A stretch of 64,000 bases of DNA from NCBI RefSeq assembly GCF_002258315.1, contig NZ_NOYD01000005.1, positions 241,584 through 305,583 on the forward strand. The letters are read 5' to 3'. Under the pieces are notes generated by a model, which worked only from the letters and a program-made list of their open reading frames with translations, did no database searches and had not been told where the DNA came from. How positions within the stretch are numbered: position 1 is the stretch's first letter; each line of letters opens with the position of its first letter. Positions 59,557-60,830 of this stretch are shown here, piece after piece. This stretch comes from Rhodococcus sp. 06-462-5. Its GTDB lineage: Bacteria > Actinomycetota > Actinomycetes > Mycobacteriales > Mycobacteriaceae. The translations under genes and the position numbers were made by a program.

Positions 59557-60597
59557 CTAATACGCGGTACCCATCGCTGCGCGTACCTCGTTCAGCGTCT
59601 GCTCCGCGATCTCGTTCGCACGCTCGTTCCCCCGGCTCACCACCGATCTCACGTAGTCAGGGTCGGCGGCCAACTCCGCCCGACGACGGCGATGTTCCGC
59701 CAGAGTCGAGTTGACTACCTCTGTCACAAGACCTTTCAACGATCCGGCTCCAGCACCGCCTATGTCTGCGGCGATCGATCTCGGGTCCTGCCCGGTACAC
59801 AGGCCCGCGACCGTGAGCAGTGCCGACACCCCCGGCCGTGCATCCGGATCGAACGAGATGTGTCGATCTGCGTCCGTCGGCGTTCTTCGCACCACCGCGG
59901 CTGTCTCGTCCGGTGTCATGGACAGCGTGATCGCATTGCCGAAGGTCTTGGACATCTTGCGGCCATCGAGTCCAGGAACGGCGGGGCTCGAGGTGAGCAG
60001 ACCCTGCGGCTCCTCGAATACCGCGCCGTAACGGGAGTTGAATCGCCGCGCGATAGTCCTCGCCATCTCGATGTGCGGAAGTTGGTCTTTGCCGACAGGC
60101 ACCACGTTCGCTTTGCAGAACAGGATGTCGGCCGCCTGGTGCACCGGGTACGTCAGCAACAGCCCACTCAGTGCGCGGCCACTGGCGGCGAGTTCTGCTT
60201 TGACAGTGGGGTTTCGGTGGAGTTCCGCCTCGGTCACCAGGCTCAAGAACGGTAGCATCAGCTGATTGAGGGCGGGTACCGCAGAATGGGTAAAGATCAT
60301 GGACTTCTCGGGGTCGATACCCGCGGCCAGATTGTCCAACGCAGCGTCGTACACATGTTGCCGCACTTGCCCGATTGCGTCGCGATCGGTGATCACCTGA
60401 TAGTCGGCCAAGACCACCATTGTCCGGACCCCTAGATCCTGCAGCCGAACTCGCTCTCGAATTGTCCCGAAGAGATGACCGAGATGCAGTGGACCTGTTG
60501 GTCGTTCACCGGTCAACGTTGTGTAGCTACTTGGATCAGCAGCGATGTCGGAGGCGAGCGCCTCGCTACGGCCGATGCTGGACAAGTAAGTGTCCAT
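59557..60597 (-). CDS. trpS: Tryptophanyl-tRNA synthetase (probably auxiliary copy)
   Basis: The 346-residue class-I synthetase has the HIGH-type GERPTGPLHLGHLFG (30-44) and the KMSKS-type LDGRKMSKTFG (210-220), and charges tRNA-Trp in the cytoplasm. AGGAGG stands six bases before ATG 60597. Directly upstream is a short leader frame with three consecutive Trp codons and a set of alternative hairpins, the arrangement known for the antibiotic(indolmycin)-resistant auxiliary TrpRS of Streptomyces. I therefore infer that this is a conditionally expressed second enzyme; whether the genome holds another trpS cannot be seen here. Confidence 0.94.
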   Translation of the reverse strand: MDTYLSSIGRSEALASDIAADPSSYTTLTGERPTGPLHLGHLFGTIRERVRLQDLGVRTMVVLADYQVITDRDAIGQVRQHVYDAALDNLAAGIDPEKSMIFTHSAVPALNQLMLPFLSLVTEAELHRNPTVKAELAASGRALSGLLLTYPVHQAADILFCKANVVPVGKDQLPHIEMARTIARRFNSRYGAVFEEPQGLLTSSPAVPGLDGRKMSKTFGNAITLSMTPDETAAVVRRTPTDADRHISFDPDARPGVSALLTVAGLCTGQDPRSIAADIGGAGAGSLKGLVTEVVNSTLAEHRRRRAELAADPDYVRSVVSRGNERANEIAEQTLNEVRAAMGTAY

Positions 60598-60603
60598 CGA
60601 ATT

Positions 60604-60741
60604 CCTCCTGAAAGAACGAAGGGCTGTACCGACCGCGCTTCGATCCGAATTCAGGACATCGGCGGGCTGAGTACAGCCCGCGGGACATGATCGACCGGGC
60701 TGCTAACGCAGCCACCACCAAGCCTGTCGAGGGTCGATCAT
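60604..60741 (-). promoter_or_regulatory. Trp-dependent attenuator leader of trpS
   Basis: In transcript order the region contains the Trp leader peptide, then mutually exclusive pairings. The leader start (ATGATCGACC, 60732-60741) is complementary to 60687-60696. The word 60696-60702 just after the leader stop is complementary to 60674-60680. An 8-bp, 4-base-loop hairpin spans 60662-60681. Finally 60671-60679 is complementary (9 bp) to 60621-60629, followed by TTCGTTCTTTC and the ribosome site. This four-segment logic is that of ribosome-mediated attenuation. No T-box consensus (AGGGTGGNACCGCG) is present. Confidence 0.8.
60703..60741 (-). CDS. Trp leader peptide (12 residues, three Trp)
   Basis: The frame reads MIDPRQAWWWLR and stops with TAG. 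Three consecutive UGG codons in a 12-codon frame, 106 bases before a tryptophanyl-tRNA synthetase start, are hard to explain by chance. Ribosomes stalling at the Trp codons when charged tRNA-Trp is scarce would free the downstream antiterminating fold. The ribosome site is weak (CGAG). Confidence 0.82.
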   Translation of the reverse strand: MIDPRQAWWWLR

Positions 60742-60830
60742 CTCGAAAGGCTACCAAGACTCGGATCGACGGGAGCGACCGATGTGGTGTCAGGATCGCA
60801 ATGGATCCTGACACCACTGCCTCTGTGGGT

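Follow-up and report, generated by a model that had tools for sequence, protein, structure and literature searches.

The window, which is the whole 64,000-nucleotide stretch of Rhodococcus DNA analysed here, contains an auxiliary trpS gene behind a conserved Trp-codon leader, and this leader is likely to be a ribosome-mediated attenuator that raises trpS when charged tRNA-Trp is short. Judged by sequence comparison, it is a switch of a known kind, that of the trpS attenuators of Streptomyces, here extended by a further conserved pairing segment next to the ribosome-binding site (RBS). The leader, its pairing strands and trpS are all located on the minus strand, with the following parts:

60748..60753, minus: -10 box TAGCCT (TANNNT) with TGG before it (extended -10), located 6 nt ahead of the leader start codon
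60703..60741, minus: leader peptide frame MIDPRQAWWWLR-stop, read from the sequence, with translation predicted from a leaderless transcript
60732..60741, minus: start-codon arm AUGAUCGACC, 10 bp with 60696-60687
60712..60720, minus: three consecutive Trp codons TGG TGG TGG, read from the sequence, predicted stall site
60708..60713, minus: strand 1, GGCUGC (last Trp codon and following), partner of strand 2
60696..60703, minus: strand 2, GCAGCCCG, partner of strand 1 or strand 3
60687..60696, minus: 3' arm of the start-codon stem, GGUCGAUCAU, supported by swap test and alignment counts
60674..60681, minus: strand 3, GCGGGCUG, the shared strand, with strands 2, 4 and 5 as partners
60670..60673, minus: loop of the 3:4 hairpin, UACU, able to pair with the 5' end of strand 5
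60662..60669, minus: strand 4, CAGCCCGC, forming the 3:4 hairpin, no U-tract behind
60650..60656, minus: anti-Shine-Dalgarno UCCUGAA, 7 bp with 60612-60606, present in the MFE fold
60621..60629, minus: strand 5, GUACAGCCC, pairing with strand 3 and the loop
60604..60609, minus: Shine-Dalgarno AGGAGG of trpS, read from the sequence
59557..60597, minus: auxiliary trpS, 346 aa (TIGR00233, PF00579)

Auxiliary trpS and its distribution

The window trpS matched TIGR00233 with 228.8 bits (cut-off 176.75) and was also recognized by PF00579. A second TrpRS had been suspected in this organism by an earlier, sequence-only reading of the window, and a second trpS, 34% identical, was indeed found on the same contig (C41); such TrpRS pairs are described as ~ 30% identical in the accessible part of PMC9437257. 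Window-type trpS accompanied by a second copy, with 31–35% identity between the two, was also detected in Glutamicibacter sp. PS, Microbacterium gorillae and Microbacterium sp. 69-10 (MAG).

When the window TrpRS was aligned to the enzyme of B. stearothermophilus (Geobacillus), position Q9, which we take to be important for the indolmycin sensitivity of TrpRS, was occupied by Arg and position H43 by Gln. Both substitutions recur in all 13 other auxiliary proteins that were aligned, and the housekeeping TrpRS of the same genome retains Q and H at these positions; D132 and Q147 are unchanged in the window TrpRS. Given the two active-site substitutions, it is plausible that the window enzyme is insensitive to indolmycin or Trp analogues. 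H43, D132 and Q147 are named as determinants of indolmycin binding, and H43N as a change that makes the B. stearothermophilus TrpRS resistant, in the accessible text of PMC4899734, where, as in that of PMC9437257, the indolmycin-resistant TrpRS1 of S. coelicolor is cited.

The auxiliary, window-type trpS is encoded by 5 of the 37 genomes of the genus, with a protein identity of 83–100%, and a WWW leader stands upstream of it in all five. A search for the pattern TGGTGGTGGCTGCNNTAGCAGCC without mismatch returned 5/37 genomes, exactly these five carriers. The WWW frame and the pairings are conserved in close relatives, with covariation, so the lack of conservation that the sequence-only reading had named as evidence against an attenuator was not encountered. 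No WW frame was present upstream of the genome's own housekeeping trpS (L002 and L112) or, among its other Trp genes, in the trpE locus L178; the WW frames observed in L179 and L180, loci of further Trp genes, look incidental.

Remnants of the gene were observed in three genomes. L117 (G021) and L118 (G023) contain a broken auxiliary trpS between the window's neighbours, i.e., the HNH-type gene, the acyl-CoA dehydrogenase and the AraC regulator, and in L119 (G009) part of the leader and a weak trpS fragment of 41 residues remain, with only the HNH-type gene matched among the neighbours. Relatives are also plasmid-borne, in Rhodococcus sp. DN22 and YL-1 (71%) and in Microbacterium sp. No. 7 (67%); the plasmid loci L166/L167 and L168, which have a Trp leader, lie near PIN-domain and ImmA/IrrE genes or adjoin an IS21 element. 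With five carriers in 37 genomes, remnants and plasmid copies, the auxiliary trpS is, to judge from these sequences, patchy, sometimes carried on plasmids and at times lost. Relatives among phage TrpRS (20 records) were every one below 60% identity. The same carrier count and the remnants in G021, G023 and G009 would fit an inherited leader without present regulation, belonging to a gene that decays in the genus; we consider this highly improbable, since the five intact copies retain the frame, the promoter spacing and the pairings, with the exception of one mismatch in the start-codon stem of L116.

The leader is also found well outside the genus. Sampled genomes matched the auxiliary trpS at E 1e-80 or 1e-90 in 33/246, 2/85, 20/295 and 18/398 cases, and 89 distinct upstream regions (at least 48% identity; from relatives, class and family samples, and plasmids) were collected, 78 of which contain a WW or WRW frame. 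Among the other 11, L138 is truncated by the contig end, yet its WWW run is present, L188 and L191 have one-Trp frames that were located by eye, and for the remaining eight (L207, L139, L140, L150, L093, L155, L095 and L096) no leader was detected by the frame filter. Kept out of the 89 regions were 74 loci from Bifidobacterium, Coriobacteria and similar organisms, of which 72 have no WW frame.

Leader transcript and alternative pairings

The 12-codon frame with three Trp codons that had been noticed ahead of trpS was confirmed (60741-60703, with trpS at 60597-59557), and its codons are ATG ATC GAC CCT CGA CAG GCT TGG TGG TGG CTG CGT TAG. A TANNNT box is positioned 6–7 nt ahead of an in-frame ATG or GTG start in 73 of the 78 leaders after six starts had been re-anchored by the TANNNT rule (before re-anchoring, the box was at 5–8 nt in 67/78), in comparison to 0.5% (0.005) of upstream control positions with TANNNT in a 4-position slot. 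Based on this spacing, the leader transcript is probably leaderless. Upstream, on the same strand, the window encodes an acyl-CoA dehydrogenase-like gene and an AraC-like regulator (scores under curated cut-offs). A 14-bp inverted repeat, GTGGTGTCAGGATC/GATCCTGACACCAC (60817-60804 with 60797-60784), lies between the dehydrogenase gene and the leader; at 60784-60817 it is terminator-like, without a U-tract, and on account of this repeat the leader probably has its own promoter.

The perfect complements of 10, 7, 8 and 9 bp listed by the sequence-only reading exist as described. They consist of AUGAUCGACC:GGUCGAUCAU (10 bp, 60741-60732 with 60696-60687), UCCUGAA:UUCAGGA across the trpS Shine-Dalgarno (7 bp, 60656-60650 with 60612-60606) or else CGGGCUG:CAGCCCG between strands 2 and 3 (7 bp), GCGGGCUG:CAGCCCGC, which is the 3:4 hairpin (8 bp, 60681-60674 with 60669-60662), and GGGCUGUAC:GUACAGCCC (9 bp, 60679-60671 with 60629-60621). 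In addition, a 6-bp hairpin GGCUGC:GCAGCC surrounds the leader stop codon. The 153-nt leader folds with -68.3 kcal/mol, compared to -53.5 (sd 4.2) for shuffled sequences (z -3.51), and 0 of 200 shuffles were as good.

Conservation of the mutually exclusive pairings 1:2, 2:3 and 3:4 was examined in an alignment of 30 relatives, taken from the 35 loci that had 64% identity or more and passed the hairpin filter, and all three are conserved. For 1:2, the 5 counted pairs and 6 RNAalifold consensus pairs are kept in 30/30 relatives, and for 2:3 the five core pairs are possible in 30/30, with a sixth in 6/30; being almost invariant, these helices are silent on covariation. The covariation signal comes from 3:4, in which 97.9% of the cells are paired and two-sided changes occur at 2 of the 8 pairs. 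RNAalifold, applied unprompted to the same relatives, returned hairpins 1:2 and 3:4 and a hairpin at the RBS, with two-sided changes in 7 of 19 pairs. The relatedness of the sequences was left uncorrected in all of these covariation tests.

The sequence-only reading had proposed to fold the leader with and without a ribosome on the Trp codons, and in the window's own leader the equilibrium folds give no switch. The MFE fold retains 3:4 in all three modelled ribosome states, and with a stalled ribosome a forced 2:3 costs 3.4 and a forced 3:5 costs 5.0 kcal/mol relative to 3:4; the Shine-Dalgarno is largely paired in the three states, with mean unpaired values of 0.35, 0.25 and 0.17. Since 3:4 stays favoured at equilibrium, a switch in the window leader would have to rest on kinetics. 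The leader of R. fascians (L116) does respond in the MFE fold, with 2:3 formed when the ribosome is stalled and 3:4 when it is at the stop codon. Across 10 loci in the stalled state, 2:3 beats 3:4 in three (L116, L200 and L162) and ties with it in L168, with the reservation that the run counted as 2:3 differs from the core 2:3 run in L162 and L167.

The position of the start codon inside the first pairing segment had been regarded as unusual; it is present, but it is not peculiar to this genome. Of the 30 aligned relatives, 29, 30 and 30 retain the respective AUG:CAU pairs, with one-sided changes only, and by this comparison the start-codon stem is a conserved feature of the clade. Transcription from the AUG would make the leader the 5' end of the RNA, which would explain why the outer stem of this clade reaches the start codon. 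In a swap test on 17 thinned relatives (of 34), stems with their own partner had -11.65 kcal/mol and swapped ones -8.12, and none of 20000 permutations was as good. The own partner ranked among the best four in 13 of the 17, eighth in L182 and L189, eleventh in L202, and last in the plasmid leader L167. Counted on the MAFFT alignment, the outer stem was not significant: its covariation score was reached by 76/500 shuffles and its paired cells by 39/500, with helix 2 being 68.2% paired. This is explained by the two registers of the stem, of which the AUG:CAU part alone is aligned, and we relied on the swap test instead of the column count. The outer stem mostly involves later leader codons in leaders of the Streptomyces type and in the VKSLVLVWWLPS group.

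Strand 5 and the ribosome-binding site

Strand 5, which lies some 20–25 nt ahead of trpS, is complementary to strand 3 together with the 3:4 hairpin loop. In the MAFFT alignment of the 30 relatives, 98.3% of the cells of the 10-bp 3:5 helix are paired, compared to 24–46% when the helix is slid, and its covariation score is above 500/500 shuffles, which ignore kinship, and above all six slides; two-sided changes affect 3 of the 10 pairs, a number that 140 of the 500 shuffles reach. Left out of this alignment were L175 and L186, which have no convincing strand 5 (shuffle fractions 0.135 and 0.09), and L188, L189 and L205, which differ in geometry. L202 (0.105) and L183 (0.84) were kept though they missed significance in the strand-5 shuffle test; the 0.05 level of this test is attained by 67.5% of 77 loci.

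The loop contributes to this pairing. With strand 5 defined by the strand-3 core alone, and loci not chosen for pairing, 63 of 69 loop nucleotides pair with strand 5 in 23 of the 24 thinned clade members, against a permutation mean of 39.5, and 0 of 20000 permutations were as high. In 27 more distant loci, 37 of 81 nucleotides pair (p 0.12), with four full triples (p 0.023). A second sequence family, the L145-L162 set (family f34), has the same layout, with leader VKSLVLVWWLPS, strand 3 GGCCGCCGCGA and strand 5 UCGCGGUGGCC.

The end of strand 5 pairs with the RBS, as indicated by a swap test on 23 loci (own -8.29 versus -6.72; 0/20000). The RBS hairpin proposed by RNAalifold has four pairs, with 11, 0, 5 and 8 two-sided changes and 6, 1, 6 and 8 breaks, respectively; an RBS closed by a covarying hairpin, a trait of translational attenuators, is thus present in the relatives. 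The window RBS is closed by a different partner than in the relatives, UCCUGAA:UUCAGGA. Opening of the RBS was modelled in 19 loci, i.e., the 26 thinned strand-5 loci minus five for length and two with no recognisable RBS. When 3:5 was forced in the stalled state, the mean unpaired probability of the RBS was 0.42, compared to 0.21 with 3:4 (ribosome at the stop codon) and 0.19 with 2:3, and relative to 3:4 it increased in 13 loci and decreased in three. For forced 3:5 versus 3:4, the values were 0.27 and 0.24 in the window and 0.53 and 0.00 in R. fascians L116. Among the 10 loci folded in the stalled state, 3:5 is less stable than 3:4 in nine, the exception being L162.

The 3:4 hairpin of the window has no U-tract behind it, the longest U-run in the scored tail being 1. 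The sequence-only reading had assigned the leader to ribosome-mediated attenuation; what stands is an auxiliary TrpRS with a conserved attenuator-like Trp leader, but plain transcription attenuation cannot be assumed, since the U-tract is missing and the RBS lies in a hairpin of its own. A purely transcriptional attenuation, in which 3:4 would terminate without a U-tract and strand 5 and the RBS hairpin would be by-products, is rather unlikely. It agrees with a Trp leader before trpS in S. lividans that is described without a uridine-rich stretch in the accessible part of PMC8079986, and with the existence of relatives that do have a U-tract after 3:4; conservation of strand 5 with covariation of the loop, together with the covarying RBS hairpin of the relatives, would be unexpected of by-products. 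A canonical U-tract follows 3:4 in L175, L188, L189, L191 and L143. By the set criteria, U-tract and strand 5 occur together in 5 of 51 thinned loci (L181, L189, L191, L195 and L196), and strand 5 can therefore not be regarded as a mere replacement of the U-tract; in L188, a U-tract is accompanied by a 9-bp run that fails the loop criterion. The association between U-tract and strand 5 in a 2x2 test (p 0.002 over 77 loci) is lost on thinning to 51 (p 0.075), and a strict either-or is therefore not claimed.

The opposite possibility is a purely translational attenuation, with no termination in the clade and the leader ribosome deciding on RBS opening via 3:4 or 3:5. The missing U-tract of the window, the more open RBS with forced 3:5 in 13 of the 19 strand-5 loci and an 11-bp 3:5 helix in the MFE fold of the leader of a GNAT gene (L220) would all suit it. 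We nevertheless regard it as unlikely: 3:5 is the weaker helix in all stalled-state folds but that of L162, stalling frees strand 2, a rival for strand 3, so that there is no simple equilibrium path to 3:5, and forcing 3:5 has little effect on the RBS in the window's own sequence. As 3:4 has no U-tract, a translational or two-stage readout is plausible. Attenuation upon Trp starvation as such is the likely reading, whether it acts by termination, by RBS control or by both.

Proposed mechanism, related systems and use before other genes

In the mechanism that we propose, transcription would start at the leader AUG. When Trp-tRNA is plentiful, a ribosome on MIDPRQAWWWLR would reach the stop codon and cover strand 2; strands 3 and 4 would pair, and the gene would be off by U-less termination, a closed RBS, or both. 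Under a shortage of Trp-tRNA, the ribosome would be held at the three Trp codons and strand 2 would capture strand 3, leaving strand 4 open and the RNA read through; we infer that this is the state that switches trpS on. Strand 5 may then compete for strand 3 and the loop and help to open the RBS. If the leader is untranslated, the AUG would be covered by the start-codon stem, with the switch kept off. Tentatively, the leader may be a portable two-stage sensor of TrpRS inhibition, in which a stall on a leaderless, self-locking leader would let transcription through and also hand strand 3 to strand 5, opening the RBS, with the module not tied to trpS, as the GNAT case described below would illustrate.

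The trpS2 / trpRS1 attenuators of Streptomyces are reportedly treated in work by Kitabatake in 2002 and by Vecchione and Sello in 2009, and a study from 2010 is said to deal with attenuation of the indolmycin-resistant TrpRS1 of S. coelicolor. These systems have in common with the window an auxiliary trpS, a leader peptide with Trp codons and mutually exclusive hairpins; the Streptomyces-like loci L143, L169, L170 and L172 differ in that 3:4 is followed by a U-tract and no strand 5 satisfies our criterion. The trp leader of E. coli contains tandem Trp codons, strands 1–4, a Shine-Dalgarno of its own and a terminator with a U-tract, of which the window shares the tandem codons and the four strands but lacks the leader Shine-Dalgarno and the U-tract. 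In translational attenuators of the ermC/cat type, a ribosome stalled on the leader opens the downstream RBS; in the window, the stall signal would be a run of Trp codons, and strand 5, the predicted anti-sequestering element, can pair with strand 3 as well.

Among published predictions, an attenuator was placed upstream of S. avermitilis trpS2 (Seliverstov et al. 2005, PMC1262725, seen in part). S. lividans trpL1 and trpL2 are leaderless by RNA-seq according to the accessible part of PMC8079986, and trpL2 of strain TK24 resembles the window in its Trp leader before trpS, with two hairpins and no uridine-rich stretch, and in the leaderless transcription that is predicted for the window. It differs in containing one Trp codon (MMTRTCTQLWRAA) instead of three, and strand 5 is absent from the description of the trpL leaders in that part of the article. 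The C. glutamicum hisD 5' UTR and the T-boxes of actinobacterial ileS resemble the window in opposing RBS sequestration to anti-sequestration, but their proposed sensor is uncharged tRNA, with no leader peptide (PMC3896937 and PMC1262725, accessible parts). The ileS case, in which predicted T-boxes sequester the RBS (PMC1262725, same part), would speak for a sensor other than the stalled ribosome, either uncharged tRNA bound by a T-box or TrpRS binding its own mRNA. Such a sensor is very improbable here, since it has no need of the Trp codons, frame and stop that are conserved, and since no Rfam family, the T-box model included, matched the window stretch at E up to 1 or any of 8 loci at gathering scores. 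A literature search, the coverage of which excluded most subscription papers, returned no description of a Rhodococcus trpS leader or a strand-5 element.

Returning to the ribosome-mediated leader, we compared its occurrence with that of trpS by means of a covariance model (R1) of the leader front, 93 positions in length. At E 1e-5, R1 matched 18 of the 398 genomes in the family to which G305 belongs, and 15 of these matches fall within the 18 auxiliary-trpS carriers. Those outside were G916, G1071 and G909. G916 (the same genome as G271; loci L220/L262) matched with E 7.2e-14 and has leader MRNDRANWWRLQ, the start-codon stem, strand 4 and strand 5 ahead of a gene encoding a 158-aa GNAT acetyltransferase:

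L220:1501-2113 (G271), Microbacteriaceae genome: Trp attenuator before the GNAT gene

The auxiliary trpS was not found in this genome, which is absent from the genomes matching it in both samples in which its numbers, G271 and G916, place it. Judging from the gene product, the GNAT protein could inactivate a Trp-adenylate-like inhibitor. Relatives of this protein are encoded on plasmids, and no Trp-Trp leader was present in the 4 inspected of 14 records, so the GNAT leader is a single case. In G1071 (L263, reverse, around 1460-1760), the front half of a leader (MNFNRTAWWWLR, strand 2 and the outer-stem arm) precedes an unrelated gene, the 3' half being lost. The G909 match (L264, E 3.1e-6) looks like chance, as it has no WW frame and lies opposite another gene. 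Among the weak RNA-model matches that were inspected, L221, L222, L223, L225, L226 and L231 have no WW frame and were likewise set aside, and L224 (E 4.1e-4) is a real trpS leader.

The leader makes testable the standing question of how Trp attenuators of GC-rich bacteria work when the terminator hairpin has no U-tract. If the proposed two-stage mechanism is true, actinobacteria would sense TrpRS inhibition by an RNA acting on one gene at two levels through a single shared strand, and the same leader module could stand before other genes. The leader could then be used to probe genomes for genes conferring protection against natural inhibitors of Trp-tRNA synthetase.
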